This document shows, piece after piece, positions 1 through 15,611 of a stretch of DNA of 64,000 nt. Made by a program: the position numbers and the translations under genes. Below the pieces are notes generated by a model. It was not told where the DNA came from. It ran no database searches and was given only the letters and a program-made list of their open reading frames with translations. Source of the stretch: Gallionella sp. (GTDB lineage: Bacteria > Pseudomonadota > Gammaproteobacteria > Burkholderiales > Gallionellaceae); the NCBI GenBank assembly GCA_028710525.1, contig JAQTTY010000009.1, forward strand, positions 64,053-128,052, written 5' to 3'. Each line of letters begins with the position of its first letter. Positions within the stretch are counted from its first letter, which is position 1.

Positions 1-690
1 GTTGCCCAACTGCTCTATCAACCAAGCACGTGCAGAGTGTGCGTTAGTCAAAGTTTCTTGGGTGGTGAAGGTTTTGGAGCTAACCACAAACAGTGTGGTC
101 TCTGCGTCGACTTTCTTTAGGGTCTCGCAAAGATGCGAAGCATCGATGTTAGATACGAAGTGCACACGCATGTCTTTGCTGGCGTAAGACTTCAAAGCCT
201 CACAGACCATCAACGGGCCTAGATCGGAACCACCTATGCCGATATTGACGATATCCGTGATGCGTTTACCGGTGTGCCCAAGATGCGTACCGTTGCGCAC
301 TGCATCACTGAAGCGTCTCATCAAACCTAACACGCGATTTACATCCGGCATCACATTCTTGCCGTCCACCATCACGGCTTTATCAGAACGGTTGCGCAGT
401 GCGGTATGCAAGGCGGCACGACCTTCCGTGCTGTTAATCTTCTCGCCCGTGAACATGCGCTCTATATTGGCGGGCAGCTCGGCTTGTTTAGCAAGGTCTA
501 TCAACAACCCCATGGTCTTTTGATCGACGCGGTTTTTGGAGTAATCAAACAACAAACTTTGCAACTGCACAGTAAAGCGATCAAAACGTTGAGCATCATC
601 TTGAAACAACTGGCGCATATGCACCGATTTCATCTCGTTGTGATGCGCGGCTAGCGCCTGCCAAGCTGGGGATAGAGTAAGTTTAGACAT
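1..690 (-). CDS. pgi: Glucose-6-phosphate isomerase (partial, C-terminus outside window)
   Basis: Interconverts glucose-6-phosphate and fructose-6-phosphate in the cytoplasm, linking glycolysis/gluconeogenesis to the glycogen genes next door. The reverse strand from an ATG at 690 reads MSKLTLSPAWQALAAHHNEM and stays open to the window edge for 230 codons. Recognisable Pgi blocks are NSTEGRAALHTALRN (about residue 80) and the sugar-phosphate segment DIVNIGIGGSDLGPLM (about 150), followed by VSSKTFTTQET. About 550 residues are usual for the family, so more than half lies beyond position 1. It is followed upstream (24 bp) by glgB on the same strand. Confidence 0.95.
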   Translation of the reverse strand, partial: MSKLTLSPAWQALAAHHNEMKSVHMRQLFQDDAQRFDRFTVQLQSLLFDYSKNRVDQKTMGLLIDLAKQAELPANIERMFTGEKINSTEGRAALHTALRNRSDKAVMVDGKNVMPDVNRVLGLMRRFSDAVRNGTHLGHTGKRITDIVNIGIGGSDLGPLMVCEALKSYASKDMRVHFVSNIDASHLCETLKKVDAETTLFVVSSKTFTTQETLTNAHSARAWLIEQLGN

Positions 691-714
691 GAAGACGATC
701 TCTGGAATCTGGAA

Positions 715-2877
715 TTAGGCCTCTGCGACAAGTACGACACCCGCCAAAGGTGGCAAGGTGATCTCAGCTGAATAGGGCATATCCATCCAAGGTATACCTT
801 CGGCTTGTAACAGACCGGCATTGCCGATGTTGCTACCTGCGTAATAATCTGAGTCGCTGTTCAATACTTCACGATACATACCTGCCTTGGGTAGACCAAT
901 GCGGTAATGGCGGCGTGGCAAGGGTGTCAAGTTAAGAGAGACAGTCACAGCAGATCCATCGCGTGCAAGACGTTGATAGGACAGTACGGAATGACTAGCG
1001 TCATTGCAATCCAACCAACGGAAACCCGTATGCTCAAAATCAAGATCGTGCAAAGCGGGAATGTCGCGATAGAGTTTGTTTAGGTCGTGAGCCAGGTTCT
1101 GCATGCCGCGATGTAGTTTCTCACCCAGTTGCCACCATTCCAATTCCCATTTGGATTGCCACTCGCGACCTTGAGCGATCTCATTGCCCATGAAGTTGAG
1201 TTTCTTACCAGGATTAGTCATCTGATAAGTGAGCAAGAGACGCAGATTGGCAAATTTCTGCCAACCGTCTCCGGGCATCTTGGATAGTAAGGAACCTTTA
1301 CCGTGCACCACCTCATCATGTGAGAAAGGCAACACGAAGTTTTCACTGTATGCATACACCTGAGCAAAGGTCAGCTCGTTGTGGTGATAGCGGCGATAGA
1401 CTGGGTCATGTTCGAAATAGCGCAGGGTATCGTTCATCCAACCCATGTTCCACTTGATGGAGAAACCTAGTCCGCCCAAATAGACTGGACGTGAAACGCC
1501 GGGCCACGCAGTGGATTCTTCGGCCATGGTCAGGGCGCCGGGGAAGTCTTCATGCACCATGATGTTCATCTCGCGCAGGAAGTCCACTGCCTCAAGATTC
1601 TCGCGACCGCCGTATTTATTCGGTATCCATTCACCCGCTTTACGTGAGTAATCCAGATAAAGCATGGAGGCGACTGCATCCACGCGTAGGCCATCGAAGT
1701 GGAACTCTGACAACCAGTAGTGCGCGCTGGACATCAGGAATGATTTAACCTCGTTGCGTCCGAAATTGAATATGTGCGTACCCCAGTCCTGATGGAAGCC
1801 TAGACGTGGGTCTTCGTGCTCAAAGAGCGCAGTGCCATCAAATCTGGCCAAAGACCAACTGTCTTGTGGGAAATGCGCAGGCACCCAATCCAAAATCACG
1901 CCCAAGCCAGCTTGGTGGCAGGCATCAATTAGTTGACGCAACTCGTCGGGCGAACCGAAACGACTGCTAGGTGCAAAATACCCCGAACACTGATAACCCC
2001 ATGATTCATCCAGCGGATGTTCAGTGACTGGCATTAATTCGATATGGGTATAGCCCATGCCTTTTACATAGGGCACAAGATCCAGAGCCAACTCGCGGTA
2101 GCTGTAAAAACGCCCATCGGGATGGCGTTTCCATGAACCTGCGTGCACCTCATAGATATTGATAGGAGCATGTAACCAATCCCAGCCCGCACGTTTTTGT
2201 ATCCATTCGCCATCTTGCCATTGATGCTCATTTGCTGGCGCGGCAAGCGAGGCTGTACCTGGACGCAGTTCATAGCCTTGCGCATATGGGTCTGTCTTGG
2301 TGAGAATGTGCCCAGTGTCACGGTTGCGAATCTCGTAGCGATACAAAGCGTGCTGCGCGACCTCAGGTATGAACAACTCCCATATTCCGCTGGAACCGTG
2401 CGAACGCATCGGATTCAGGCGACCATCCCACTGGTTGAATTCGCCGACCACACTGACACGTTCTGCGTTGGGTGCCCATACGGCAAAGCGCGTGCCATGT
2501 ACGCCATTCATCTGGATAGGATGTGAGCCCAGCACACGGTAACTTTGTTTAAGTTTGCCTGCGCTAAATAGATTCAGATCTTGAGGGGAAAGATGAGCGG
2601 GAAACTGATAGGCATCGTAGATATCACGACTCAGCTCACCTTCATTGATACGGACTTTGTATGGGCGCTTAGGTTCTACTTTGCCGCGCCATTCGAATAC
2701 ACCTGCAGGGTGGGAACACTTAAAGCTAGAGGCTTCAGGAGCATCTAGGAGAGTTACCTTGGTAGCGTAGGGGTGATATACACGGATGACCCATTCTGAT
2801 CCTTCACGATGTAAACCCAGCAAACTAAAAGGGTCGTAAAGACGGGCTTGCAACAGCGTTTCCAATAAACTATTCAC
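715..2877 (-). CDS. glgB: 1,4-alpha-glucan branching enzyme
   Basis: Introduces alpha-1,6 branches into glycogen (GH13). 720 aa, the normal full length with an N-terminal extra module, a CBM48-like domain (RFAVWAPNAERVSVVGEFN, about 130-150) and the TIM barrel. The catalytic triad is visible: nucleophile D400 in GLRVDAVASM, acid/base E453 in TMAEEST, and the transition-state Asp in FSHDEVVHGKGSL (about 520). The gene is divergent from glgC, with 87 bp between the two starts, so a shared regulatory region is likely. It is 24 bp upstream of pgi on the same strand and may be cotranscribed with it. Confidence 0.97.
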   Translation of the reverse strand: MNSLLETLLQARLYDPFSLLGLHREGSEWVIRVYHPYATKVTLLDAPEASSFKCSHPAGVFEWRGKVEPKRPYKVRINEGELSRDIYDAYQFPAHLSPQDLNLFSAGKLKQSYRVLGSHPIQMNGVHGTRFAVWAPNAERVSVVGEFNQWDGRLNPMRSHGSSGIWELFIPEVAQHALYRYEIRNRDTGHILTKTDPYAQGYELRPGTASLAAPANEHQWQDGEWIQKRAGWDWLHAPINIYEVHAGSWKRHPDGRFYSYRELALDLVPYVKGMGYTHIELMPVTEHPLDESWGYQCSGYFAPSSRFGSPDELRQLIDACHQAGLGVILDWVPAHFPQDSWSLARFDGTALFEHEDPRLGFHQDWGTHIFNFGRNEVKSFLMSSAHYWLSEFHFDGLRVDAVASMLYLDYSRKAGEWIPNKYGGRENLEAVDFLREMNIMVHEDFPGALTMAEESTAWPGVSRPVYLGGLGFSIKWNMGWMNDTLRYFEHDPVYRRYHHNELTFAQVYAYSENFVLPFSHDEVVHGKGSLLSKMPGDGWQKFANLRLLLTYQMTNPGKKLNFMGNEIAQGREWQSKWELEWWQLGEKLHRGMQNLAHDLNKLYRDIPALHDLDFEHTGFRWLDCNDASHSVLSYQRLARDGSAVTVSLNLTPLPRRHYRIGLPKAGMYREVLNSDSDYYAGSNIGNAGLLQAEGIPWMDMPYSAEITLPPLAGVVLVAEA

Positions 2878-2964
2878 CTAAGCTCCCTTTGTTCTTGTCT
2901 AGTTGGTCGATTGTAAACGATAATGAGCGAGGGACGATAACGTAAATGACGGGAGAGAGAAAAA

Positions 2965-4290
2965 ATGAATGCTGAGTTAGGCTATTTACAAAAAAAATAC
3001 CATGTTGCTTCAGGGGATCCAGCTCCACGTTTTGTTAGTCGAATAACCAAGAATACCTATGCGATGGTTTTAGCCGGTGGTCGTGGTAGCCGTTTACATC
3101 AGCTTACCGATTGGCGTGCCAAGCCCGCCGTACCATTTGGGGGCAAGTTCCGCATTATCGATTTCGTACTTTCAAATTGCGTCAATTCCGGCATACGTCG
3201 TATCGGCGTCGCCACACAATACAAATCGCATAGCCTTATCCAGCACATCCAACGCGGTTGGTCATTTTTGAATGGTCAGTTCGGTGAGTTCGTTGACTTA
3301 TTGCCTGCGCAACAACGCGTCAGTGAAGATCATTGGTATCAGGGTACGGCAGATGCTGTTTTCCAGAATCTGGATATCATCCGTGAATCGAAATGCGACT
3401 TTGTTTTGGTACTAGCCGGTGATCACATCTACAAGATGGACTACGGCAAATTGTTGGCCTTTCACGTGGAAAGCAAAGCTGACATGACTGTCGCTTGCTT
3501 AGAAGTGCCGCTTGCTGAAGCAACCGCTTTCGGTGTGATGGATGTGGATAAGGACTCGCGCGTAGTTGGTTTCGTAGAGAAGCCCGCGAATCCACCCTCT
3601 ATCCCTGGCAATCCAGAGAAGTCATTGGCCAGCATGGGTATCTACGTATTCAACAGTCAGTTCCTTTACGAGCAACTGATACGTGATGCAGACGATCCTA
3701 AATCTAGCCATGATTTCGGCAAGGATCTGATTCCGCACATGGTGCAAAAGTATCGTGTATTTGCCCAAAGTTTTGAGCAAAGTTGTGTAGGTATGGGCGA
3801 TGACAATATCCCTTACTGGCGTGACGTTGGTACGATCGACTCCTACTGGGAAGCCAGCATGGAACTAACCAAGGTCATCCCCGACTTGAATATGTACGAT
3901 CAAGAATGGCCGATTTGGACCCATCAAGAACAATTGCCACCTGCCAAGTTCGTCTTCGACGAGCCTGATCGTAGAGGTGTTGCAGTGGACTCATTAGTCT
4001 CTGGCGGTTGTATCGTAAGTGGTTCTACAGTTCGTCATTCGTTGCTGTTCTCAGATGTACGTGTGAATAGTTATTCCACTATCGAAGATTCAGTGTTATT
4101 GCCTAATGTCGACGTAGGTCGCTATGTGACTTTGAAGAAGGTCATCATAGACAAGAATTGCAAGATACCAGAAGGCATGAGCATAGGTGTAAATCCTGAT
4201 GAAGACCGCAAGCGTTTCCATGTTAGTGCCAACGGTGTGACGCTAGTCACTCCTGAGATGCTAGGTCAAGTCGTACATAGTATTCGCTAA
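2965..4290 (+). CDS. glgC: Glucose-1-phosphate adenylyltransferase
   Basis: Makes ADP-glucose from glucose-1-phosphate and ATP, the committed step of bacterial glycogen synthesis. 441 aa, slightly longer than the E. coli enzyme (431). The pyrophosphorylase signature [20 protein letters not shown] is near residue 37, the sugar-phosphate loop [10 protein letters not shown] near 152, and FVEKPANPP near 205. A C-terminal left-handed beta-helix region ([18 protein letters not shown]) follows. The start at 2965 has a purine-rich GGGAGAGAG upstream. A strong hairpin terminator follows the stop codon directly. Confidence 0.97.
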
Positions 4291-4302
4291 TTCCATCTGT
4301 AC

Positions 4303-4330
4303 AGCCCCGTCGTTAGATGGGGCTTCTTTT
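4303..4330 (+). terminator. Intrinsic terminator between glgC and the GH57 gene
   Basis: Stem AGCCCC (4303-4308) pairs with GGGGCT (4319-4324) around a 10-nt loop and is followed by TCTTTT. The T-run ends at the base before the GH57 start codon (4331), so the hairpin occupies the place where a Shine-Dalgarno sequence should be. Confidence 0.75.
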
Positions 4331-6043
4331 ATGAAAAAATCTGTAGACCTCGTATTCCTCTGGCATATGCATCAGCCGGATTACCGTGACTATTCAACGG
4401 GTGATTTTGTCTTACCTTGGACCTATCTGCATGCCATCAAGGATTATACCGACATGGCATATCACCTAGAGAAGCATCCCAAGATCAGAGCCATACTGAA
4501 CTTCGTCCCTATCTTGGTCGATCAACTTGAAGACTATGTCGATCAATTTGCCACCGGAAAACTGCGCGATCCATTATTGAGATTGTTGGCGCATAAATCT
4601 CCCAACGATATGACGGCCGATCAACGCGATCTTCTGCTCGATGCCTGCTTCAGATGCAATCACGAGAAGATGGTCGAGCCATTTCCGGCATACCAACGTC
4701 TGATGGATCTACACTCTGAAGTTCAAGGTCAAGGTGACGCTGCATTGTCGTATCTGTCTGGTCAGTACATGGCAGACCTGGTGACTTGGTACCACTTGGC
4801 TTGGTGCGGCGAGAGTGTCAGACGCGAATTCCCTCTATTGTCTAGATTGATGCATAAGGCTGAGGGATTTAGCTATCAGGATAGAAAAGAGCTGCTGGAT
4901 CTGATCGGCGAACTGGTCACCAACGTCATTCCGCGTTATAGGAAGTTGGCCAAGACCGGACAGATAGAGATCTCCGCTACCCCGCATTACCACCCCTTGG
5001 CACCATTGATGATCGACTTTGCCAGCGCTCGTGAAGCGATGCATGATGTCCCTTTGCCTGTATCTGCCTTTTACCCAGGTGGCAAGGAAAGAGTCGCACA
5101 ACACATCGCCAAAGCAAAGAAGAGTCACGCCGCACGTTTCGGCACCGAGCCCAAAGGAATGTGGCCGGCAGAGGGCTCTATTTCCGATGCCACCTTGCAG
5201 GTCATGGCGGAGGAGGGCTGTCATTGGGCGGCTAGTGGGCAAACGGTGTTGGTGAATAGCCTGCGCCGTCACCAGATGCCATCTGATAATCGAGCACAAT
5301 ATCTTTATCGCCCGTACACAGTTACTGCGTCTAATGGCGATATCAGTTGCTTCTTCCGTGATGATAATCTTTCCGACTTGATTGGCTTTGAGTATGCACG
5401 CTGGGATGGAAAAGCGGCCGCCTCACACTTCATAGGTCAAATTGAAGAAATCGCAAGACAGGCTTTAGGGGCTGAGTCGCCGGTCGTCAGCGTTATCTTG
5501 GACGGCGAAAATGCATGGGAGTATTACCCTTACAACGGATTTTATTTCTTGGATCATTTGTATAGCGAGTTGGAACATCATGCCAAGATTCACACAACCA
5601 CCTACAGCAACTACCTAAAACTTAGCCCTATTCGTTCTGATGTAGCTAAGACGATGGAACTGCCGAGTATCGTTGCTGGCAGTTGGGTATATGGTAATTT
5701 CTCTACTTGGATAGGCTGCAAGGACAAAAATCTCGCTTGGGATCTTTTGTGCGAGGCTAAACTAAGTTATGACAAAGTCATGGCGAGTGGCAATTTGACT
5801 GATAAGGAACAGATTGCTGCCGAACAGCAACTTTGCTCATGTGAAAGTTCAGACTGGACATGGTGGTTCGGTGATTACAATCCTTCATTGTCGGTAGCAA
5901 GTTTCGATCGACTATATCGTCATAATCTTCGAGAGCTGTACCGCTTGATTAAGTTACCAGCACCCCACAATCTTTCCGAGCCGGTCAGCTTGGGGAGTGT
6001 GGCTACAGATGTTTCCGGTGCGATGCGCCGTGCATCAGAATGA
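4331..6043 (+). CDS. Glycoside hydrolase family 57 alpha-amylase/4-alpha-glucanotransferase
   Basis: A retaining GH57 enzyme acting on alpha-1,4-glucans, here most likely in glycogen remodelling or breakdown. 570 aa. Conserved GH57 regions are seen in order: WHMHQPDYRDY (about residue 11), GMWPAEGSISD with the nucleophile E281, and LDGENAWEYYPYNG with the acid/base D391. No signal peptide is visible, so it should be cytoplasmic. It lies between glgC and malQ (36-bp gap to malQ), all on one strand. No Shine-Dalgarno is evident before ATG 4331, because the glgC terminator hairpin fills that space. Amylase and transferase activity cannot be told apart from sequence alone. Confidence 0.9.
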   Translation: MKKSVDLVFLWHMHQPDYRDYSTGDFVLPWTYLHAIKDYTDMAYHLEKHPKIRAILNFVPILVDQLEDYVDQFATGKLRDPLLRLLAHKSPNDMTADQRDLLLDACFRCNHEKMVEPFPAYQRLMDLHSEVQGQGDAALSYLSGQYMADLVTWYHLAWCGESVRREFPLLSRLMHKAEGFSYQDRKELLDLIGELVTNVIPRYRKLAKTGQIEISATPHYHPLAPLMIDFASAREAMHDVPLPVSAFYPGGKERVAQHIAKAKKSHAARFGTEPKGMWPAEGSISDATLQVMAEEGCHWAASGQTVLVNSLRRHQMPSDNRAQYLYRPYTVTASNGDISCFFRDDNLSDLIGFEYARWDGKAAASHFIGQIEEIARQALGAESPVVSVILDGENAWEYYPYNGFYFLDHLYSELEHHAKIHTTTYSNYLKLSPIRSDVAKTMELPSIVAGSWVYGNFSTWIGCKDKNLAWDLLCEAKLSYDKVMASGNLTDKEQIAAEQQLCSCESSDWTWWFGDYNPSLSVASFDRLYRHNLRELYRLIKLPAPHNLSEPVSLGSVATDVSGAMRRASE

Positions 6044-7744: not shown

Positions 7745-7840
7745 AGTTCCTCTAGTTATTAAATTCGCATAATGTATATTATGTCAAATTAAATACAAGT
7801 AACTCATTCGATGCTTCAAGACATTAGACGAGCCTACTGA

Positions 7841-7845
7841 TACCC
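7841..7845. repeat. Left copy of the 5-bp target-site duplication (TACCC)
   Basis: TACCC here is repeated at 15607-15611 directly outside the opposite end of the element. Removing the element and one copy joins malQ-side sequence to the region upstream of the helicase gene. Confidence 0.85.
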
Positions 7846-7853
7846 TGACGGCA

Positions 7854-7919
7854 GACACATGGTTTGAAATATTCGGACACATGGTTTGAAATATTCGGAC
7901 ACATGGTTTGAAATATATT
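7854..7919 (+). repeat. Left-end array: three tandem 22-bp transposase-site-like repeats
   Basis: Three head-to-tail copies at 7854-7875, 7876-7897 and 7898-7919. The first two are identical and the third diverges in its last four bases. Each contains ACATGGTTTGAAATAT. The first copy starts 8 bp inside the left terminus. Position, number and matching inverted copies at the other end fit L1-L3 MuA-type binding sites. Mu's own left sites are unevenly spaced, so this strict tandem layout is distinctive. Confidence 0.85.
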
Positions 7920-7971
7920 GCAATTCAAGCGTCCAATATCTAACAATATTTGCGCGGCATATGGCACAAAA

Positions 7972-7996
7972 GCAAAAGGGCTAAATATAGCCCCTT
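7972..7996 (-). terminator. Terminator downstream of the protease-I gene
   Basis: On the minus strand a GGGCT/AGCCC stem around a 6-nt AT loop is followed by TTTTGCTTTTG. It lies 15 bp past the stop of the leftmost element gene and would end transcription before the left-end repeats. Confidence 0.6.
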
Positions 7997-8011
7997 GCTT
8001 TACCGTCAGCA

Positions 8012-8698
8012 TTATTTAATTTGCGGTGCATCCTCTCCAAACATCCGCCGCATTACATAATTATCATGCTCTTTTTGTTGTGCCGTACCAGAATAAACCA
8101 GGGCATCATTTACGCCTACATCAACGGGAGGAATTAGTGACGCGTTAACACCGAAGCAACTCAAAAGTACGCGGTTTGCGTGATCTCTATCGTATTTGGA
8201 CATAACAGAACGCTGAAAACCACTCTTAGCGGCCACCATATCCGTCAATCCATCTAGTGCGGGGTCGTTGGTGATAGCGGCGGAATGCAAGCCTTGCACG
8301 TCTCCCGTTTTAAAATCAAAGGTAAACACGGGCGAAATATAACGATACTCGCGCGCCGCAATCATTGCGGCGGCGCGCTCAGTCCATCGCACATCTAAAG
8401 CAAACAGGCCTCCGCTGTCACCATTGCGCCATTCCAACCGTTTAAACCATCCCGCCGCTGGAGCTGGTAGCCCGTTTTTGCTTGCCGATATGGTTTGGTG
8501 CTCATAATCTATTAAAAAATCATTGGCGCGCAATGTTGCAGCCTGAATAATGGCCGCCGCATTGCTTGCGGTCAACTTCCAGCCAGGCAAACCAGCCGGG
8601 CGGCCATCGGTAGCGCGAAAAATTCCTGCTGGAATTAATCGAATAATTTTCCCCGCTCCGAATAGAGGGGATGCGGTGCACGTGGTTAGCCTAGACAT
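8012..8698 (-). CDS. Mu protease-I-like protein, short form lacking the scaffold region
   Basis: Homologue of phage Mu gpI, the prohead protease whose C-terminal part (also made alone as Z) is the scaffold. 228 aa, against about 360 in Mu. Family blocks are DFLIDYEHQTI (about residue 62), AAGWFKRLEWR (about 81), EYRYISPVFTFD (about 117) and LHSAAITNDPALDG (about 136). The frame ends soon after the protease domain with an unrelated-looking tail, so the scaffold is missing. The gene follows the 208-aa unknown by 1 bp and is the last gene of the leftward unit. Its substrate would have to come from another phage, since the element has no capsid gene. The family call is firm; the biological role is inference. 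Confidence 0.75.
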   Translation of the reverse strand: MSRLTTCTASPLFGAGKIIRLIPAGIFRATDGRPAGLPGWKLTASNAAAIIQAATLRANDFLIDYEHQTISASKNGLPAPAAGWFKRLEWRNGDSGGLFALDVRWTERAAAMIAAREYRYISPVFTFDFKTGDVQGLHSAAITNDPALDGLTDMVAAKSGFQRSVMSKYDRDHANRVLLSCFGVNASLIPPVDVGVNDALVYSGTAQQKEHDNYVMRRMFGEDAPQIK

Positions 8699-8699
8699 A

Positions 8700-9326
8700 T
8701 CAACCCTTAACCACTACGCCCAATTGGCGAAGATTGTCGGCAAGCGCGCTTTTGCTTACTTGTAGCGCGGAAAGTGTATCTTGTGCGGCTTGAATTGCGG
8801 CGCGGCGTGTCACGCGGTCAGTGCCTATCTGCTCCGGCAATAGCCCATCATAACCAAAATCGGCATCCACCATGCCAGCCATAGCACTGGTTAACCCGGC
8901 CTTAACCAGTGCGCCGAAAAATGCGTAAAGAGCAAGGTCATTAAATTGAAACTTATCAAAGGCAGTAATAAGTTGCGCGTTTGAACTTGCACCACTTACG
9001 CCATTAATTGCATTTTCTAAATCTCTGAAAAGAATAGGCTTACCAATTGAATGCAGATCAACGGATCCCCCTGCCATTTGGTTTGTTGCAAATTGCTGAA
9101 TTGAGGGCCGAATATATTCCGCCAAATAAGCCTGCCCGCGCGCATCCACAAAGTCTAAGATGGCGGCTTTTAAGTCGGCAATAGGCACGGGCAGTAATGG
9201 AAAATCTGACAACTGATTTTCCGTCGTTGCAATCTCTACGCACACAGCATCATATTGAGCTTGTATGGCTGCGACGGAGGATTTTACCTGGTTAAATGCG
9301 TCTATTTCTTGCTGAGTAAGTGCCAT
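8700..9326 (-). CDS. Unknown element protein, 208 aa
   Basis: I do not recognise a family. The protein begins MALTQQEIDAFNQVKSSVAA and is strongly helical by composition. It has heptad-like segments at both ends (about 5-40 and 175-205) and a central hydrophobic stretch LALYAFFGALVKAGLTSAM (about 130-148), which could be a buried helix or, less likely, a membrane segment. There is no signal peptide. AAGAGGAAAAATC precedes the ATG at 9326. It lies between mor and the protease-I homologue and is probably cotranscribed with the latter (1-bp gap). The pairing suggests a joint function. Confidence 0.7.
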   Translation of the reverse strand: MALTQQEIDAFNQVKSSVAAIQAQYDAVCVEIATTENQLSDFPLLPVPIADLKAAILDFVDARGQAYLAEYIRPSIQQFATNQMAGGSVDLHSIGKPILFRDLENAINGVSGASSNAQLITAFDKFQFNDLALYAFFGALVKAGLTSAMAGMVDADFGYDGLLPEQIGTDRVTRRAAIQAAQDTLSALQVSKSALADNLRQLGVVVKG

Positions 9327-9378
9327 GATTTTTCCTCTTAAGTATTAAATGAGTTCGCGATTTTGTGAATGGTTCGTA

Positions 9379-9855
9379 TTACGTTCTTTCGTGTTGCCGC
9401 CCTTTCGTTGCTGGGTGCTGGTTGGTTTCATCAACCATGATTAGCTGGCTTATTTTTCGGACGGTTCGCGCAGTTAATTGATACTTTTGGGCGCATTGAT
9501 TTTGAGATAATCCCGCCGCTAAATCTGCGCGTATCAGCCTATTGCGCTGGTCACGCAAAACCGACACAGCGCGGGGAATTTCAACCGTCAAGCCGCCATA
9601 TTCGGCGGCTATACATTGCGCGGCTTCCTGCCCCAACAGCCGCACCAGGTCATGCTCTGGAGCCATGCGGGCGGGGATATACAAAGCCGACAAACCGCCG
9701 TATCGCTCAATCAGCTTTGTGGTGGCCTCTTCCCCGATTTTTTGCACGATTTCATATAAAATGCCGGGATAATTGGCCGCTCTTGCCCGTGATAAAACAA
9801 AACTACGCATCTTTTCGCCCCTTGGTAATTTCAAGCGGAACTTTATCCGCTCCAT
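9379..9855 (-). CDS. Mor-family transcription activator
   Basis: Resembles the Mu middle-operon regulator Mor/C family, which activates phage promoters after replication begins. 158 aa. It has the dimerisation-type segment with YGGLSALYIPA (about residues 53-63) and a C-terminal helix-turn-helix DLAAGLSQNQCAQKYQLTAR (about 111-130). Two starts are possible: M1 at 9855 or M16 at 9810 (MRSFVLSRA); the usual family length fits either. A strong terminator lies directly upstream, so it probably has its own promoter. In Mu this protein turns on late gene control; here its only obvious downstream targets are the unknown 208-aa and protease-I genes. Confidence 0.75.
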   Translation of the reverse strand: MERIKFRLKLPRGEKMRSFVLSRARAANYPGILYEIVQKIGEEATTKLIERYGGLSALYIPARMAPEHDLVRLLGQEAAQCIAAEYGGLTVEIPRAVSVLRDQRNRLIRADLAAGLSQNQCAQKYQLTARTVRKISQLIMVDETNQHPATKGRQHERT

Positions 9856-9886
9856 GCCGTGCGGTTAATGCGGAACACATTCCGCC

Positions 9887-9919
9887 AAAGAAAAAGCCCG
9901 CCGGGATAACGGCGGGCTT
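9887..9919 (-). terminator. Strong intrinsic terminator separating small genes from mor
   Basis: A perfect 10-bp stem (9894-9903 with 9910-9919, AAGCCCGCCG pairing CGGCGGGCTT) with a 6-nt loop is followed on the minus strand by TTTTTCTTT. It lies 23 bp past the stop of the 73-aa gene and 32 bp before the mor start, so it splits the leftward genes into two transcription units. Confidence 0.85.
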
Positions 9920-9942
9920 GCTGGGGTGCAATGAAAAAATCG

Positions 9943-10164
9943 TTATAACTTTAAGGTGGCTTCAATCTGTTTAACATCCTGTTCAATCAGTTTTAAAATA
10001 TCCTGCATTGCGCCGATCAGGTTGGCGGCGTGGTTGCAGCGCGCTTGATTGTCCACATCATGCGGCACGGCCTCCAGTGCGCAACTAGCGACCGATTGCA
10101 GGATGCTAACGCGCCCCGCCAGGTCATACCATGCGCCGGGCATTTGCTGATTATTGTCACTCAT
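9943..10164 (-). CDS. Small unknown element protein, 73 aa
   Basis: Starts at ATG 10164 (MSDNNQQMPGAWYDLAG), preceded by GGGAGGTG and overlapping the stop of the upstream gene as ATGA, so translation is probably coupled. A longer in-frame start at 10227 would overlap that gene heavily and is rejected. The product looks all-helical, with CALEAVPHDVDNQARCNHAA in the middle and a charged C-terminal helix (about 50-73) suited to oligomerisation. I do not recognise a family. Confidence 0.65.
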   Translation of the reverse strand: MSDNNQQMPGAWYDLAGRVSILQSVASCALEAVPHDVDNQARCNHAANLIGAMQDILKLIEQDVKQIEATLKL

Positions 10165-10454
10165 GCGACACCTCCCACCGCACGGCGTGGAACGGCGGCA
10201 ATGGCGTTGCGGGACATGGCGGCGCAAGAGGCTTTTTCCTGCTCGACTTCCAGTTTGCTGCCTTGTTTAATAGTGATTGCACCCGCCATAGTCAAGGCCT
10301 GAATCAGGCCGTGGATATAGCCGCCATGCCATTGGCTGGCATCTGCATCCTTGATGCGGGCGGATACAAAGCGCGCGGCGCGTTGTTGTGCTGTTGTGGG
10401 TGCTGGGATTGCGTGGCCGTTGATAACGGCGAGGTGTGGGCGTGCGGTTTGCAT
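10161..10454 (-). CDS. Small unknown element protein, 97 aa
   Basis: Begins MQTARPHLAVINGHAIPAPT after AAGGA at 8-nt spacing. It is downstream of a TTGACA-type promoter and a perfect palindrome, and its stop overlaps the next gene (ATGA). Basic overall. It contains AARFVSARIKDADASQWHGG (about 25-44) and an alanine-rich C-terminus. I do not recognise a family. Coding is supported by the ribosome site, promoter and coupling rather than by homology. Confidence 0.6.
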   Translation of the reverse strand: MQTARPHLAVINGHAIPAPTTAQQRAARFVSARIKDADASQWHGGYIHGLIQALTMAGAITIKQGSKLEVEQEKASCAAMSRNAIAAVPRRAVGGVA

Positions 10455-10470
10455 GGCGAGAATCCTTTAC

Positions 10471-10503
10471 GGTTTAAGTTAAACCGCGCTCGCATACTGT
10501 CAA
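10471..10503 (-). promoter_or_regulatory. Promoter with overlapping palindromic operator for the small-gene operon
   Basis: On the minus strand TTGACA (10503-10498) is followed about 16 bp later by TTAACT, which lies inside the perfect 15-bp palindrome GGTTTAAGTTAAACC (10471-10485). The palindrome straddles the -10/start region, so a dimeric protein bound there would block or tune transcription of the 97-aa and 73-aa genes. Which element regulator binds is not known. Confidence 0.55.
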
Positions 10504-10627
10504 ATATGGGAGGGCGGCGGTGCAGGTTGACAGACCGGGTAAAGGAACCGGCAAGCCCGAAGGCTTCCCACACCGCCGCCCAATTGGGTTGCTGTGTTGA
10601 CGGATGCGCACCTAAAAACTAGGGGCG

Positions 10628-10653
10628 TAAAAATAGCCGCATTGCTGGCGGCT
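10628..10653 (-). terminator. Terminator downstream of gemA
   Basis: Minus-strand stem AGCCGC/GCGGCT (10635-10640 with 10648-10653), a 7-nt loop, then ATTTTTA. It would end the long leftward transcript through ner, muA, muB and gemA, and it lies upstream of the TTGACA promoter of the next operon. Confidence 0.6.
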
Positions 10654-10750
10654 GTATCCGCCTTTACTCCGAGCTGTCAAACTCGTATCACGTTTTTTTC
10701 GTGACGGTTAAACTTTGCACCTAGTGGGTTTATTCGTCAAGCGGTTTTTT

Positions 10751-10860
10751 TGATATACTGCGCTTGTGTGTAGCAAATACGGGGCGTTTTGGGCGTATAG
10801 GTCAGGGGATGTCAAAGGCATTGCATTGACTTCTGTAGCTACACACACCCGCCATTTTCC
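10751..10860 (+). ncRNA. Candidate structured small RNA with its own promoter
   Basis: An extended -10 (TG-A-TATACT, 10751-10759) is followed 5 bp later by TGTGTGTAGC (10765-10774), which pairs perfectly with GCTACACACA (10838-10847). Within this 10-bp closing stem are two hairpins: ATACG/CGTAT (10777-10798 region) and GTCAA/TTGAC (10811-10830). The result is a three-way junction of about 83 nt. The predicted start coincides with the base of the closing stem. A tail ACCCGCC could pair with the GGGGCG loop. There is no clear -35 and no T-run terminator. It is on the plus strand, opposite to all neighbouring genes. The remaining 10574-10985 sequence contains a TCACG-T7-CGTGA hairpin at 10688-10704 and no ORF I trust. 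Confidence 0.45.
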
Positions 10861-10985
10861 CGGCAAAGTCACAAACCCCGCTCTACCCTTCCCCCACGAA
10901 TCGAATTAAACCCCGTTACCCTACGTTAAAACCTTGCGGCGGGCCGTTGCCTATACCTTCGCCTACCCAGCACAAGCAAAACGCC

Positions 10986-11435
10986 TTAAAGCGCGTTTAA
11001 ATCGGTTTGTGGTTTTTTCTTGAAACTCATCAGCGAACCAATCACCTTGCGGGCTTTTTCCGCTGAACAAAATTTTACGGCCGACACACCGTGATGATGT
11101 TCCAGCCAGCGGCGCAAGCCGTCTGGGTCATGGTATCCCTTCCAGTCGTCCCATAATGCAACGATCTTGCTACGTTGCGCCGGGCTGGCTGTCCAGGCGG
11201 CGCGGGTTTGGTGCAATTCAGCCTCATGGCGCGCTGTGGAAACAAACCCCAGCCGGGCGAATTCATCCATCACCAGGGCAAACCCCGCTGGTGTTAGTTT
11301 GGTTGCCGACTGCACCCCGGTCACGCGTTGCAACAAGGCGCGGTAATCGGCATCCGCCATATCAAGGCGTTTCTGTGCGATCTTGACTTGCTGCACACAG
11401 GCGGCGGATAGAGTTGTTTTGGCGGGGGCGGAAAT
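10986..11435 (-). CDS. gemA: GemA/gp16-like regulatory protein (probable ATT start)
   Basis: Homologue of Mu GemA (gp16), a protein reported to modulate host gene expression and DNA supercoiling. The family core VKIAQKRLDMADADYRALLQ and VTGVQSATKLT is at the N-terminus, and a middle segment with SKIVALWDDW follows. The open frame extends back to ATG 11561, but that would overlap muB by about 120 bp and add 42 residues unlike the family. A GGGAGG at the muB stop lies 8 nt before an in-frame ATT at 11435, giving a 149-aa protein, the usual length. The nearest other start is GTG at about 11396, which would cut into the conserved core. I therefore favour ATT, with moderate confidence. Confidence 0.75.
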   Translation of the reverse strand: MSAPAKTTLSAACVQQVKIAQKRLDMADADYRALLQRVTGVQSATKLTPAGFALVMDEFARLGFVSTARHEAELHQTRAAWTASPAQRSKIVALWDDWKGYHDPDGLRRWLEHHHGVSAVKFCSAEKARKVIGSLMSFKKKPQTDLNAL

Positions 11436-11437
11436 GG

Positions 11438-12439
11438 TTATAACCTCCCGGTCAGGGTCAAGGTTTGATGGTTGATTGCGCCGAATTTGCGCGCAGCCAG
11501 CTTGAAGGCACTGGTTAAGGCGCGCAAGCCGCCCGCCCCTTTGGCTTTGTTGATACACCATTCGCGGGCGGATTTGCCGCTGATTCCCCAGGCGGTCATA
11601 ATCAAATCAACATCTTCATCGGGCACGGCACGAACTTCAACCCGCCATGCTTCCATTCGGCTGGATAGCTGCGCATATTTCGCGCCCTTCACGCGGCGAT
11701 AGATTTCCCCGTTGCTTAAAAAGGCAATGCCAAATAGTTTTTTATCGGTGAAGTAGCGCAAGCCGTTCAGGATATTCAAGCCTTGTATCAGGTGAGCATC
11801 GCCTATATGTTGCGCTTCATCCACGATCAGCAAGCCGCCGCGCCCTTCCGTTTTGGCTTCAATCTCCGCGATACTGACACCCCCCGCGCCCGCATCGAGT
11901 TCAGCCCCGATCAGGTTCAAAACGCTTTTGAGCGATAAAGAAAATTCACTTAAGGTTATACGCCACACCGGGCAAGAAAAGCTTTCCAGCTTGCGACATT
12001 GCGCTAGATATTGCTCCGCCGCGCAGGTTTTACCCGTGCCAGGTGGCGCGGCGATTTCCACCAGTTCGCACAGTTCGCGCGCCTGCTCGAAGCCGTCCCA
12101 TATCTTGCGCGATACCGCTGTTTCAATGAAGGTTTCAGCGGCTGCTTGATTATCGGCGCGCTCCGCGTCCAGCGCGGCAAACCAGGCGCTTAACTTTTGC
12201 TCAATTTCATCGGCGGGGGCGATCTGGTCAATATACCGCGTTTCGCGCATCGCTTCGGGATTGAGCGTCCAGGCTTTGATACGATCAGGGGCAAGCTTTA
12301 CAAAAGTATGGCCGCGCTCGGTGTTCAATCCTGATTCAATCGCGATACGGTTCAAACTGTAGCCGCGCGCCAGCTCGTCAGCCAGGCGGGCGGTTAATTG
12401 CTCCCAGCGTTCATAATTTACAACGGGTTTATCTTGCAT
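11438..12439 (-). CDS. MuB-type AAA+ ATPase, target-DNA activator of transposition
   Basis: Binds target DNA with ATP, delivers it to the transposase and stimulates strand transfer. 333 aa, close to Mu B (312). An N-terminal helix-turn-helix region (about 20-45, SLNRIAIESGLN) precedes the ATPase domain with Walker A APPGTGKT (K137) and Walker B LLIVDEAQ (D207/E208). Sensor-type residues lie near AFLSNGEIYRRV. It sits 31 bp after the transposase gene. Its last codons carry the Shine-Dalgarno used by gemA. Retention of the ATPase residues indicates a functional partner. Confidence 0.9.
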   Translation of the reverse strand: MQDKPVVNYERWEQLTARLADELARGYSLNRIAIESGLNTERGHTFVKLAPDRIKAWTLNPEAMRETRYIDQIAPADEIEQKLSAWFAALDAERADNQAAAETFIETAVSRKIWDGFEQARELCELVEIAAPPGTGKTCAAEQYLAQCRKLESFSCPVWRITLSEFSLSLKSVLNLIGAELDAGAGGVSIAEIEAKTEGRGGLLIVDEAQHIGDAHLIQGLNILNGLRYFTDKKLFGIAFLSNGEIYRRVKGAKYAQLSSRMEAWRVEVRAVPDEDVDLIMTAWGISGKSAREWCINKAKGAGGLRALTSAFKLAARKFGAINHQTLTLTGRL

Positions 12440-12470
12440 GATCTCTCTCTTATAGTGGGGGGGTATAGGG

Positions 12471-14513
12471 TCAGGCGGCTTTAAATCGTTTTTCTAGGCG
12501 AGCCGCTTCGCGCCGTTGCGCAATCAGGCGGTACTTTTCAGCCTCTGCCGCTTGAGTATCGGCAGGCTTTTCGGCTTTGGATATACCAAAACTTTCACCC
12601 GTGGCCGTGTCGGTAAACACGCCCGGCGATGTTTCAACCAGGGGCGTGGGTATGGGTAAGGCAACTAGGGCGGCGGGCTTCTCAATCACGACTGGAACGG
12701 CAAACACGGGCGCGGCGGGTGTGGGTAAACAAACGGGGGCGGCCTTCTTGAGTGTCTTAAATCCAGCGGCGCGCGTTTTCTTGAAAGCGGCTTTATTGAT
12801 GCAATGCTGCGCGGCGGCTTCCTTGCTTCCTATTAAGCCAATACGTGACGCTTCACAAACAAAGCGAATATCGTCATAAACCAACACGGGCGAATCCGGC
12901 AAGGCTGAATTATGGAAAATATGGTATTTTTTGGCGCGGGCGGCCATCGGTAAATCAGCCAAGGTTTCAGACCAAAAGCGCGCTTCCCCATAACCGGGAA
13001 TCTTGAAACGAATGCTTGCATCCTTATTATTGAGCGTCAAAACCCGCTGCTCAAGCTGTAATAAGCGCATATCTTCCGCACTGGGGTGCGGCCATTCTTT
13101 CAATGGTTCGGCCTGTATCAATTCTTCATAAACTTGTTGGGGTGGCTTGCCGTTCATTCCGCGCCCCCGGTGTTTGTGTTCGCGGTTGAATACATCAAGG
13201 ATTTCAGCCAGTTTTCCGGAAAAAATCTCAATCGGAATAGCATTCTTTTGCGCGTCAAAGTCAGACGGCTTTGAGGCGGTATCCTTGCCGCAATATGCGC
13301 CTTGAAACATCGGTAATTTATCAAACTGGTAAGCCACCCACTTCCAAAATGATTCAATCGGTTTTTCCTGCCCGCGATAGGGGCGCGACCAATCCGCTAC
13401 AACCCCCATCCGAGTTAGTGCGCCTATTGGGTCATCCTCTTTTATCTGGAAGCGATAGCGAGTTTTTTGCCCGCCCGTGACAGACTTGGCGGCATATTCC
13501 CGCCCGTTGTCCAGCAAGGTGCGCTGGGGTTTGATCTGGGTGTTTTCCAGTGCAGAGCGAAACGCGGCAAGCGTAAGGGCTGCATTAGGATGAATTCCCC
13601 CGCGTACGCCCAGTATTTTTCGTGTTCGCATCTCTACCCATGCCACGATAAACGGGCGGGCAATTGTGCCATCTGGCCACACACAAAATACGTCAAAATT
13701 ACGCCCATCTGATACCCATGTATTATGCAAGGAGTAAGACAAGTAATCCCTCTCAGCCGCTGGATAGGCCGCATCAAACGCCTCCACGCCCTTGCGCCCT
13801 AGCAAGTATTGCGTTGCGGGTAAGCTGTTTATTTTCCTAGTAATCGTTTTTTCTGATGGAAAAATCCAGCCGCGCGCCCTGCCTTCCTTTTTGGCTTCCT
13901 TGATAATCACACAGGCGGGCGTTTCTGACGTGTTCAGATAGTGCGATTTTATCCAGTCCCATGCGTCAGGCGTTAACTCCGCCTCTTTGGTGCGGCCTTT
14001 GTATCGGGGCAGCAATAAAGCCGTCCACAGCTCGCGGGGCTGCCCTTCGATCCGAAGGCGGGCGCGCCATAGCGTCGCATTGTCAACCTGATAAGCTGCT
14101 TTAATCTGCGCGGCGGCGTTGCCTTTACTTGCGCCCGCTGCGCGCAAGTCTTCAAAATCCGCCACAGCGGCGGCGAGGTTGTCCGCGCGTTCTTTGGATT
14201 TTATAGGGGAGCGGCGATAGGCTAGATGCAAGGCATCCGCGTCCAGTAAAGGCTTATCAACTAGGGGGGGCAAAATGGCGGGCGGCGCGGCGATTTGTGT
14301 CGGGTATTGCGCTTCCATGTATCGCTGTTGTACAGCTACAGGCAAGGCGATCAGCGGGATAATCCAGCCGTTTGCGTCCTTGATTGCGCCGGGATATTTT
14401 TCAGCAATGCAAGCCCGGCGGATAGTTGATTCGTGCTTTTCCAGCCAGTAGGCGGCTTGCGCACTGGTTAACATTTGCGGGGTGAGTTCGCCGCTTTGGC
14501 GGGTTAGTTTCAT
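12471..14513 (-). CDS. MuA-type DDE transposase
   Basis: Catalyses cleavage and strand transfer at the element ends. 680 aa (Mu A is 663). An N-terminal winged-helix DNA-binding domain (LTSAQAAYWLEKHESTIRRA) is followed by end-binding domains and the RNase-H-fold core. The catalytic triad is D269 (WVSDGRNFDVF), D335 (LLDNGREYAAK) and E387 (GQEKPIESFW). These are nearly the same positions as D269/D336/E392 in Mu. The C-terminal domain III ends in EARRLEKRF. The start at 14513 is 6 bp after the stop of the Ner-like gene. All catalytic residues are present, so the enzyme is probably active. Confidence 0.95.
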   Translation of the reverse strand: MKLTRQSGELTPQMLTSAQAAYWLEKHESTIRRACIAEKYPGAIKDANGWIIPLIALPVAVQQRYMEAQYPTQIAAPPAILPPLVDKPLLDADALHLAYRRSPIKSKERADNLAAAVADFEDLRAAGASKGNAAAQIKAAYQVDNATLWRARLRIEGQPRELWTALLLPRYKGRTKEAELTPDAWDWIKSHYLNTSETPACVIIKEAKKEGRARGWIFPSEKTITRKINSLPATQYLLGRKGVEAFDAAYPAAERDYLSYSLHNTWVSDGRNFDVFCVWPDGTIARPFIVAWVEMRTRKILGVRGGIHPNAALTLAAFRSALENTQIKPQRTLLDNGREYAAKSVTGGQKTRYRFQIKEDDPIGALTRMGVVADWSRPYRGQEKPIESFWKWVAYQFDKLPMFQGAYCGKDTASKPSDFDAQKNAIPIEIFSGKLAEILDVFNREHKHRGRGMNGKPPQQVYEELIQAEPLKEWPHPSAEDMRLLQLEQRVLTLNNKDASIRFKIPGYGEARFWSETLADLPMAARAKKYHIFHNSALPDSPVLVYDDIRFVCEASRIGLIGSKEAAAQHCINKAAFKKTRAAGFKTLKKAAPVCLPTPAAPVFAVPVVIEKPAALVALPIPTPLVETSPGVFTDTATGESFGISKAEKPADTQAAEAEKYRLIAQRREAARLEKRFKAA

Positions 14514-14519
14514 AGCTGG

Positions 14520-14714
14520 TTAACTGTTTATGATTTCGCCTTTTTTCATTCCCAGCTTGACGGCTACCGCGTGAGACTTCCCCCAGTTTCCTTTAGCACG
14601 TCCATGAATAACATTCTGTACCTGTTGAAAAGTGAAACCGTTTTTATTTGCCCATGCGGTCACTGTTTCGCCCCGTCTTCTCATTTCTTCGATTACTTGC
14701 GCCCCAGTTTTCAT
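14520..14714 (-). CDS. Ner-like DNA-binding protein (BcepMu gp16-type family)
   Basis: 64 aa, beginning MKTGAQVIEEMRRRGETVTA. It has the pattern of small phage-associated regulators that sit first in the early operon of BcepMu-like phages: a helix-turn-helix WANKNGFTFQQVQNVIHG followed by GKSHAVAVKLGMKKG. In Mu, Ner damps early and repressor transcription. Here it is the first gene of the leftward early operon, 6 bp before the transposase gene and divergent from the repressor. AAGGCATGGTAATCAAATG precedes the start codon. Confidence 0.8.
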   Translation of the reverse strand: MKTGAQVIEEMRRRGETVTAWANKNGFTFQQVQNVIHGRAKGNWGKSHAVAVKLGMKKGEIINS

Positions 14715-14777
14715 TTGATTACCATGCCTTTATATTAAATTAACAACATGCATATTAAAACATGCATAAGTATAATT
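14715..14777. promoter_or_regulatory. Divergent control region between the Ner-like gene and the repressor
   Basis: This AT-rich spacer contains the direct repeat ACATGCATA at 14746-14754 and 14760-14768. Each copy holds the palindrome ATGCAT, with centres 14 bp apart, and they look like operators. On the minus strand TATACT (14775-14770) is a good -10 for the early operon, placed so that the repeats cover its start site. No convincing -35 is seen for either direction. Confidence 0.5.
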
Positions 14778-15212
14778 ATGCAACCATTAAATAGTGAAAA
14801 GAATAGTTTTGGTGGGAGATTAAAAGAGGAGCGCCAAAGACTAGGGCATACTCAGGATGCTTTTGGGGCTGGTGCGGGGGTAACGCGGCTAACTCAGTCA
14901 AAATATGAAAAAGGCGAAAGTTCACCTAATGTTCAATATTTAACTGCTATTGAAGAAATGGCCGTTGATATTAATTACTTACTTACTGGCAACAAACGCA
15001 GCGATGTAATTAGTACAGACGTTCACGGTAAATATGCCGATCTTGCCGCCGATATTATTATGGAGTTGGAAGTGTTGATTAACGCAAAAGGGGTAAAACT
15101 ACCCCCGGCAACGAAAGCTCAGCTTGTCGCTACAATCTACCGGAATAGCCAGGTAAATTCCCCAGTTAATACGCGGTTAATTTCTGATTTATTGTCTCTT
15201 GCAGTAGCGTAA
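14778..15212 (+). CDS. XRE-family repressor of the element
   Basis: 144 aa from ATG 14778 (MQPLNSEKNSFGGRLKEERQ). An earlier ATG at 14748 would add ten residues and lies in the operator region. The N-terminal helix-turn-helix is visible: RLKEERQRLGHTQDAFG, TQSKYEKGESSPNVQYL. It is followed by NYLLTG, typical of phage and toxin-linked XRE regulators. The C-terminal half (about 75-144) is helical and probably dimerises; no LexA-type protease motif is seen. It is the only rightward gene of the element, divergent from the Ner-like gene, the layout of a lysogeny or transposition repressor. A terminator follows at 15334. Confidence 0.85.
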   Translation: MQPLNSEKNSFGGRLKEERQRLGHTQDAFGAGAGVTRLTQSKYEKGESSPNVQYLTAIEEMAVDINYLLTGNKRSDVISTDVHGKYADLAADIIMELEVLINAKGVKLPPATKAQLVATIYRNSQVNSPVNTRLISDLLSLAVA

Positions 15213-15333
15213 AAAACGCACGCAGAATGCGCGGGTATGTTTTTAGCGTTAAATTTCTCCTTGATTTATCATAAACCAAGTAGGTAAAGGCTTTTCGGGG
15301 GGGGTGTGCATCGTTTTAGCACTGCACGCAAAA

Positions 15334-15361
15334 CGCACGCAATGCACGCGTGCGCTTTTTG
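15334..15361 (+). terminator. Terminator downstream of the repressor gene
   Basis: Perfect 7-bp stem CGCACGC (15334-15340) with GCGTGCG (15348-15354), a 7-nt loop, then CTTTTT. It prevents repressor transcription from running through the right end into the helicase promoter. The region 15213-15417 otherwise holds only short CGCACGCA repeats and no gene. Confidence 0.7.
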
Positions 15362-15417
15362 TCTATTTTTTACTTTTAATTTCACTGATTGCTAGTAACG
15401 GCGTGGTATGGCTGGTG

Positions 15418-15598
15418 TTTGAAATATTTCAAACCATGTTTTCATCTGCGCGGTCGGTGTTCGTTTTTGCGTGAAATCTGCGCGAAATTGTTTAAAATAT
15501 TTCAAACCCAAATTTGCCGCCTATCCCGCTACATCCCGCATAGAATCGGGTCTTCCAGCTTAATTCCCTTAGATTCCATATATTTCAAATCAACTGTC
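15418..15598 (-). repeat. Right-end transposase-site-like repeats (three copies)
   Basis: On the minus strand the motif TTTGAAATAT occurs near 15424-15433 (within the palindrome TTTGAAATATTTCAAA, preceded by ACATGG exactly as at the left end), near 15497-15506 (preceded by GG), and at 15580-15589 with flank GACAGTTGA ending at 15598. The last lies 8 bp inside the right terminus, matching the first left-end copy. Spacing is about 75-85 bp, unlike the tandem left array. These fit R3, R2 and R1 sites. Confidence 0.8.
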
Positions 15599-15606
15599 CC
15601 CCGTAA

Positions 15607-15611
15607 TACCC
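15607..15611. repeat. Right copy of the 5-bp target-site duplication (TACCC)
   Basis: TACCC follows the terminal CCGTAA of the element and matches 7841-7845. Confidence 0.85.

Follow-up and report, generated by a model that had tools for sequence, protein, structure and literature searches.

Bacteriophage Mu is the textbook case of nearly random insertion. TniA and TniB are related to MuA and MuB, and the Tn7-like transposons recognise their target by means of TnsD, TnsF or the selectors of CRISPR-associated transposons (CAST) and insert at a fixed distance from it. The chromosomal dif site is used by the integrative mobile elements exploiting Xer (IMEX), which recombine into it. As regards the res site hunters of the Tn5053/Tn402 type, an excerpt of one report describes a typical orientation next to res (PMC7765201). 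In this study, we report an element of 7,761 bp, with both ends intact, in a 64,000-nucleotide stretch of a Gallionella sp. genome (contig JAQTTY010000009.1, positions 64,053 to 128,052; hereafter the window). It shares with Mu-like phages the same set of MuA, MuB, Ner, repressor, GemA and Mor, the architecture of the ends and the 5-bp duplications, and it differs from them in the length of its family (7.4-11.2 kb), in having no virion gene set and in its placement beside dif. Position, orientation and the controls, on six loci, give good support to a family of dif-directed Mu-type transposons, and we consider the element, with a probability of about 0.8, to be an autonomous short Mu-family transposon inserting at a set place beside dif.

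The features that place the element in the Mu type were a MuA DDE transposase together with a MuB ATPase, and paired ends with 22-bp sites and a 5-bp duplication (Table 1). A sequence-only reading of the window had proposed precise ends, a complete MuA triad, a MuB-type ATPase, homologues of Ner, GemA, Mor and the repressor, and intact reading frames, all of which were borne out: the ends at 7846 and 15606 are flanked by the duplication TACCC, residues D269, D335 and E387 are invariant in an alignment of 46 rows, Pfam recognised MuB, GemA, Mor and the repressor and phrog_925 recognised Ner, and all ten genes of the element are open frames. The three tandem 22-bp repeats (7854-7919) have inverted copies at the opposite end. 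We name the end beyond the I gene attR-like and that on the repressor side attL-like, on the assumption that the anatomy of Mu applies. The same reading had stated that capsid, tail, packaging and lysis genes are absent. This stood except for the capsid part, since the gene at 8012-8698 matched the head protease family of Mu I (PF10123, E 1.8e-58, model positions 1-166 of 330; phrog_328, E 4.4e-59); none of the ten proteins matched terminase, portal, major capsid, tail or lysis families in Pfam and PHROG. Compared with the late set of Mu-like viruses (terminase, portal, capsid, tail and lysis genes), the element thus has only the truncated I protease. The best identity of its MuA to a phage record was 30.4%, among the 20 of 35 matches listed.

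A single dif match at up to 3 mismatches of 25 was found in each of the five genomes with canonical cases, that of the window included. The names of the XerC and XerD halves are those of E. coli, which we assume to apply here. In all six readable loci of the MuA clade described below, the window included, the same attR-like end was found on the XerD side of dif or of a dif-like site, in one orientation and at a distance of 39 to 57 bp (56 bp in the window, 53 in G057, 39 in G009, 44 in G435, 47 in the Pandoraea genome G621 and 57 in G772), which departs from the near-random target choice of Mu-like viruses. The five loci other than the window were found by element DNA or by the transposase, and dif was not used. 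The link was first noticed in the window, G057 and G009, both relatives having been found by element DNA without flanks, and it then held in three further clade genomes obtained from the MuA profile alone (G435, G621 and G772). The profile was run on sets of 158, 399, 18, 220, 120 and 258 genomes, which overlap. In the window, the element is flanked by a 4-alpha-glucanotransferase gene (malQ) on the dif side and by a DEAD-box helicase gene on the opposite side, and malQ also adjoins the site in G057 and G009. Inovirus genes (Zot and a G2P-type Rep) were seen across the same dif in G009 (L023, 2538-5218 and 5551-5578). In G772, the element adjoins ParA, ParB and DUF2857 genes (Pfam), which we take to be neighbours of the type seen in integrative and conjugative elements.

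The arrangement was also sought as a pattern (dif, 36-66 bp, TGACGG). It was present in four of 158 genomes of the family, namely the three carriers and G035, and the reversed-pattern control gave none. Among 399 genomes of the order it was found in five (G000, G009, G435, G487 and G130). The element end in G487 lies 50 bp from dif, and the contig breaks off about 230 bp further; the match in G130, where there are no repeats, was taken as chance. In G035 a remnant was observed at dif (L031, 1875-2030), with the left end fused to an apparent inverted right end and the interior lost. Two pattern matches in IMG/VR (L177 and L178) were also taken as chance, given that they had no match to element proteins at E ≤ 0.01, and a search with the element-end pattern gave no matches. 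Under random placement, the chance of the five canonical cases falling within 60 bp of dif, on any side and in any orientation, corresponds to a log10 P of -22.2. It is -13.6 for G000, G435 and G621 only, and -9.2 for G435 and G621 alone, the canonical cases found after the link had been noticed.

In a FastTree phylogeny of 64 MuA sequences with midpoint root, the dif-linked loci, including G772, and the locus L085 fell within a clade of 24 with support 1.0. The input included 22 of 116 proteins from the protein search, 24 of the last 65 IMG/VR loci (L088-L111) and L085-L087. Three loci were set aside before the count: G245 (a 4.2-kb contig with a MuA outside the clade), G300 (a fragment with a stop, not in the tree) and L085 (far end not recognised). 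Outside the clade, MuA loci with 25-29% identity (G161, G533, G1003, G927 and two in G979) showed no dif in stretches of 14-60 kb at up to 7 or 8 mismatches; G161 and G533 are weak controls, as dif was not recognised anywhere in either genome. None of 68 IMG/VR loci with MuA relatives, L085 of the clade among them, showed a dif site when 994,697 bases were scanned with up to 7 mismatches allowed; many of these loci are trimmed, and any dif past the contig would be missed. The sister group of the clade includes a complete short element with a matched duplication upstream of mraZ (L086, 9660 onward), and L259 (7806 onward), another short Mu-type element, has a distant MuA and a position upstream of groES and groEL. 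Other Mu-type lineages perhaps prefer other conserved sites, such as these.

The sequence-only reading had regarded the element as a stable small mobile design, and its relatives agree with this. When 199 relatives were searched by DNA, diverged copies were recovered in two genomes of the genus (G057 and G009), and related elements of 7.4-11.2 kb were found in a different species of the genus as well as beyond it, in other genera and families. The lengths between ends were 7,761 bp in the window, 8,852 in G057, 8,534 in G009, 11,154 in G435, 8,602 in G772 and 7,382 in Pandoraea (two copies), with 9,501 bp in the sister-group element L086. The two Pandoraea copies are identical, lie in the same orientation beside dif and carry different duplications (ATGGT and ATGTT); therefore, the short form inserted at least two times at one place, and the mobility that had been suggested for it is upheld. 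Of the two, the nearer lies 47 bp from dif; the interval between them is 27 bp, and the farther one would lie about 69 bp from dif if the nearer copy and its duplication were subtracted. The duplications of the window and G057 also differ from each other. Over all, duplications were matched in four of seven dif-side copies (the window, G057 and both Pandoraea copies). The ratio of nonsynonymous to synonymous differences per site (pN/pS) between the window and G057 was 0.218 for I, 0.322 for MuB, 0.345 for o208 (the 208-residue product of the gene beside I), 0.370 for MuA, 0.384 for GemA, 0.489 for Mor, 0.540 for Ner and 0.545 for the 97-residue open reading frame (ORF), values which are rough as synonymous sites are near saturation (pS 0.49-0.72). 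Protein I was the most constrained of these eight, and the cargo is, by these ratios, clearly maintained under purifying selection. Searches of plasmids gave 6 records for MuA (best identity 31.7%) and 33 for protein I (41-59% identity among the 20 listed).

These data bear on the possibility that the element is a decaying prophage, a full Mu-like phage that lost most of its late genes by internal deletion. Homologues in phages exist for most of its genes, late genes of phages are represented by protease I and further cargo, and the remnant in G035 is genuine; but the MuA frame is open and both ends are recognisable in all six clade genomes, the pair of o208 and short I recurs in G057 (66 and 72% identical to the window, respectively) and in L085 (39 and 56%), the lowest pN/pS is that of I, the element is present in Pandoraea as two identical copies, and for one internal late gene to be retained beside the end, two deletions would be required on every occasion. 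Neither a full-length phage with the same MuA at the same site, nor close relatives with the same insertion and a full set of structural genes, which the sequence-only reading had named as the observation that would overturn it, were seen in the loci examined. A one-off deletion or decay was rejected on the G057 pair, the Pandoraea twin copies and the pN/pS of the cargo, and we hold decay to be highly improbable. It is very unlikely, too, that the surroundings of dif are a passive hot spot which tolerates insertions, so that elements are merely retained there. The dif site is a landing site for Xer-integrated phages, and inovirus genes lie across dif in G009. In addition, an excerpt on transposable phages of Pseudomonas, in which dif is not mentioned, describes some with hot spots near hairpins of bacterial interspersed mosaic elements (BIME) and one that is mostly random (PMC5977238). 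Tolerance would, however, give a scatter over kilobases, on both sides and in both orientations, instead of one side, one orientation and 39-57 bp, and the more distant MuA loci had no dif in the scanned DNA.

A third possibility is that MuA and MuB read the sequence or shape of dif DNA directly, XerCD not being involved. The near-palindromic nature of dif and the fact that no interaction partner was identified are in accordance with it, but insertion takes place at a distance and on the XerD side only, although the core is nearly symmetric, and no common motif was evident by eye in the gap sequences, for which no motif search was made. We consider direct reading unlikely, and guidance by XerCD the likeliest mechanism. 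According to this proposal, MuA and MuB would be drawn to dif by bound XerCD, possibly with FtsK, in parallel with the Tn5053-family res site hunters, which are drawn to resolvase-bound res sites. The position next to dif would offer a safe intergenic harbour. Moreover, as the donor dif and a target Xer site would stand beside the same element end, XerCD could resolve the cointegrates arising from replicative transposition. The use of XerCD as resolvase predicts unmatched duplications, and four matched and three unmatched were counted in the dif-side copies. The Tn5053/Tn402 elements likewise have a DDE transposase and an ATPase and lie beside a dimer-resolution site in one orientation; the present element differs in that its target is the chromosomal dif and not res, and in that its transposition genes are of the Mu type. 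No TniQ, TniR or resolvase was found among the ten element proteins with Pfam, and MuB gave a TniB match below the cut-off (E 0.034). With respect to the Tn7-like transposons, the ten proteins include no TniQ, TnsD or TnsF, and the presumed selector would be a host protein. IMEX are likewise found at dif, within which they are integrated between dif-derived sites, but the element lies outside it with a 5-bp duplication of its own and leaves dif intact.

Several observations weigh against insertion of the family at a set place beside dif, and must be considered together. Only six loci of the clade have a readable context, and 16 of the proteins that the tree places in the clade come without DNA. 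Candidates at first look were scored in part (for instance, 2 of 3 for G000 and 5 of 18 for G621), and extra copies may have been missed. In the sister genomes G057 and G009, the element lies between malQ and dif, and the two may share one insertion. In G772, the site is only dif-like, with the XerD half intact and the XerC half degenerate, and the normal dif of this genome is some 113 kb distant. L085 belongs to the clade, and the 665 bp that follow its I gene contain neither dif nor a recognised far end; we count it neither for nor against, although it may be a counterexample. Duplications were unmatched in three of seven copies (G009, G435 and G772), and no precise empty site was recovered: when 32 Pandoraea genomes were searched with the dif flank, 29 had matches at dif, most of them short, and none gave a clean empty site. 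The 27-bp spacing of the Pandoraea copies is at odds with Mu-type target immunity, which Mu-like elements are said to show in an excerpt of PMC8987985. Finally, no dedicated target selector was found, and contact with XerCD is putative.

The genes between Mor and the dif-side end vary among members. The window and G057 have o208 and short I, as does L085. G009 has a DUF7210 protein and proteins of 180 and 100 residues; G772 has a 191-residue protein together with a protease that belongs to a different family and is truncated (positions 30-173 of 415 in phrog_976); Pandoraea has a full-length major capsid protein gpT; G435 has a tail assembly chaperone, a tape measure and two unassigned proteins; and L086 has a 239-residue protein and a tape measure. 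The 180-, 191- and 239-residue proteins jointly matched the o208 profile (probability 97.2, E 4.7e-11). With two profiles, the o208 type was present in eight of ten loci (the window, G057, G009, G772, L085, L086, L259 and L179), the G772 match being obtained only with the profile built including the G772 protein. There were 36 relatives of o208 at E ≤ 1e-3, itself included, and none among 50,697 phage records at E ≤ 1. Its predicted fold is all-helical, with a predicted local distance difference test score (pLDDT) of 91.7. It was rejected as the factor that directs the element to dif: in L259, upstream of groES, o208 (44%) accompanies a distant MuA, L086 carries an o208-like protein and sits upstream of mraZ, and the profiles had no match in the dif-adjacent G435 and Pandoraea elements. 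In L085, inovirus genes (Rep_trans and Zot; 147-4891) adjoin the short Mu-type element, and it is possible that this inovirus is a vehicle for it.

With regard to the function of the cargo, the element has no full set of virion genes and has genes related to the capsid and to late expression, and their function is read from sequence only. Among the best 120 of 1,244 relatives of protein I, its own included, 93 had at most 290 residues and 27 at least 310, with none between, and the first long relative ranked 31st. In IMG/VR, 76 of the best 80 of at least 596 I loci were full-length (frame above 300 residues or open at the contig end) and the remaining four, which include the L085 contig, were short. 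With up to 6 mismatches allowed, dif was absent from all 80. The pair of o208 and short I was also found in another of the short cases, L179 (7166-15314), beside an integrase, AlpA, a Toprim primase and DUF927, in an island that follows the I gene of a Mu-like prophage, which ends after the protease domain, downstream of the portal gene. From its genes, we read L179 as a probable P4-like satellite that lies within the I gene and whose far junction is off the contig; it is the one locus in which the cargo is shared with an element of putative satellite type. The long middle region of I is gone in the short proteins, and the tails of 23 of 90 matched the full-length C-terminus better than all 20 shuffles, about 4 being expected by chance. 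Excerpts on Staphylococcus aureus pathogenicity islands (SaPI) report that CpmB copies, or mimics, the scaffold of the helper (PMC12409344), with small capsids as the result (PMC12409344, PMC10945586). On these grounds, we infer a capsid-directed role of the cargo, with Mor as putative activator.

The truncated I protease, the capsid or tape-measure genes and the pair in L179 suggest phage satellites, and a satellite using a Mu-like helper is plausible, with indirect support from the lengths of the I relatives and from L179. The satellite role is a reasoned guess, of which we are less sure than of the targeting. Mor would switch on late genes, much as P4 delta switches on those of P2; the protease-only I, with o208, would bias the assembly of helper capsids. 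Instead of these, other members carry gpT, the major capsid protein, or a tape measure. The P4, phage-inducible chromosomal island (PICI) and PICI-like element (PLE) satellites are likewise small, with an activator of phage genes and capsid-related genes, and the o208 and short-I pair occurs in the P4-like island; the element differs from them in moving by MuA and MuB and not by an integrase, and its helper and packaging are putative. It must be said that the tail of I in the window scored 24 against a shuffled mean of 26.7, that is, no better, that o208 profiles gave nothing at E ≤ 1 in the G435 and Pandoraea elements, that the fold search with the o208 model gave no match (best E 0.35 in PDB and 0.16 among viral models), and that no second MuA was seen in the window genome in the MuA searches, all of which count against a satellite. 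Alternatively, the cargo may protect the host as an anti-phage device made of dominant-negative capsid or tail proteins, rather than aid packaging. Lone morphogenesis genes without packaging genes could poison assembly, and Mor could express the cargo upon infection, but PADLOC gave no match for six element proteins, and by sequence this device is inseparable from a satellite. As specific proposals go, such a device is somewhat unlikely; as regards the general direction of the role, protection of the host and action on capsids are, by sequence, equally possible. The full proposal of a new class, that is, Mu-transposing phage satellites targeted to dif via XerCD, with XerCD as resolvase, swappable capsid- or tail-modifying genes and Mu-like helpers, is tentative and should be taken as doubtful rather than probable.

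The remaining features are given in Table 1. Neither dif (7762-7789) nor the C4 antisense RNA (10506-10587) had been part of the sequence-only reading. C4 antisense RNA is known from immunity regions of the P1/P4 type. It was found likewise in G057 and G009 (L022, 10088-10170; L023, 8487-8570), and the gathering score of RF01695 was not reached in L064, L070, L085 and L086. Just upstream of it there is an isrK-like match with a score of 30.7, under the gathering value of 50. Parts of the window at 10377-10685, and these alone, matched DNA in about 10 other genomes of the family and order with 69-87% identity, and these matches are probably the C4 region of other elements. The 97-residue ORF has a counterpart in G057, with 62% identity over 76 residues.

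Table 1. Position, strand and family assignment of the features of the element and of the adjacent dif site in the window
Feature	Position	Strand	Family or remark
Chromosomal dif site, XerC half then XerD half	7762..7789	+	outside the element, 56 bp from it
Target-site duplication TACCC, dif side	7841..7845
Dif-side element end (attR-like), terminus TGACGG	7846..7919		three tandem 22-bp repeats, presumed MuA sites
Protease-only Mu I protein, 228 aa	8012..8698	-	PF10123, phrog_328; head maturation protease domain and short tail
o208, 208 aa, all-helical protein without assigned function	8700..9326	-
Mor-type late/middle transcription activator	9379..9855	-	PF08765, phrog_836
Small ORF, 74 aa	9943..10167	-	no Pfam or PHROG match
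Small ORF, 97 aa	10161..10454	-	weak DUF7621 / phrog_6863 match, under the Pfam cut-off
C4 antisense RNA	10506..10587	-	Rfam RF01695, 62.3 bits against gathering 45
GemA	10986..11561	-	PF06252
MuB-type AAA transposition ATPase	11438..12439	-	PF13401, PF09077, phrog_296
MuA-type DDE transposase, 680 aa	12471..14513	-	PF02914, PF09039
Ner-like regulator	14520..14714	-	phrog_925, E 5e-22
Helix-turn-helix repressor	14748..15212	+	PF01381
Repressor-side element end (attL-like), TTTGAAATATT sites, spaced and inverted	15417..15606		repeat families D17, I1, I4, I10
Target-site duplication TACCC, far side	15607..15611

In the open-access literature, among the matches listed and in the parts available, there was no description of dif-linked Mu-like or MuA elements nor of transposing phage satellites. 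Terms for dif and for Mu-like elements are both present in the portions seen of PMC8987985 and PMC3914690, where they are treated separately. The excerpt of PMC10293859 has no mention of "dif site", XerC or XerD, and that of PMC8649781 no occurrence of dif or XerC.

If a Mu-type lineage is indeed fixed on dif, it would show how target choice evolves in the MuA/MuB/TnsB/TniA superfamily when no selector gene is recognised, and the family might offer a natural instance in which a DDE transposase is directed by a recombinase complex of the host. In addition, if the cargo works as guessed, the elements would represent a type of phage satellite that moves by transposition and not by an integrase.

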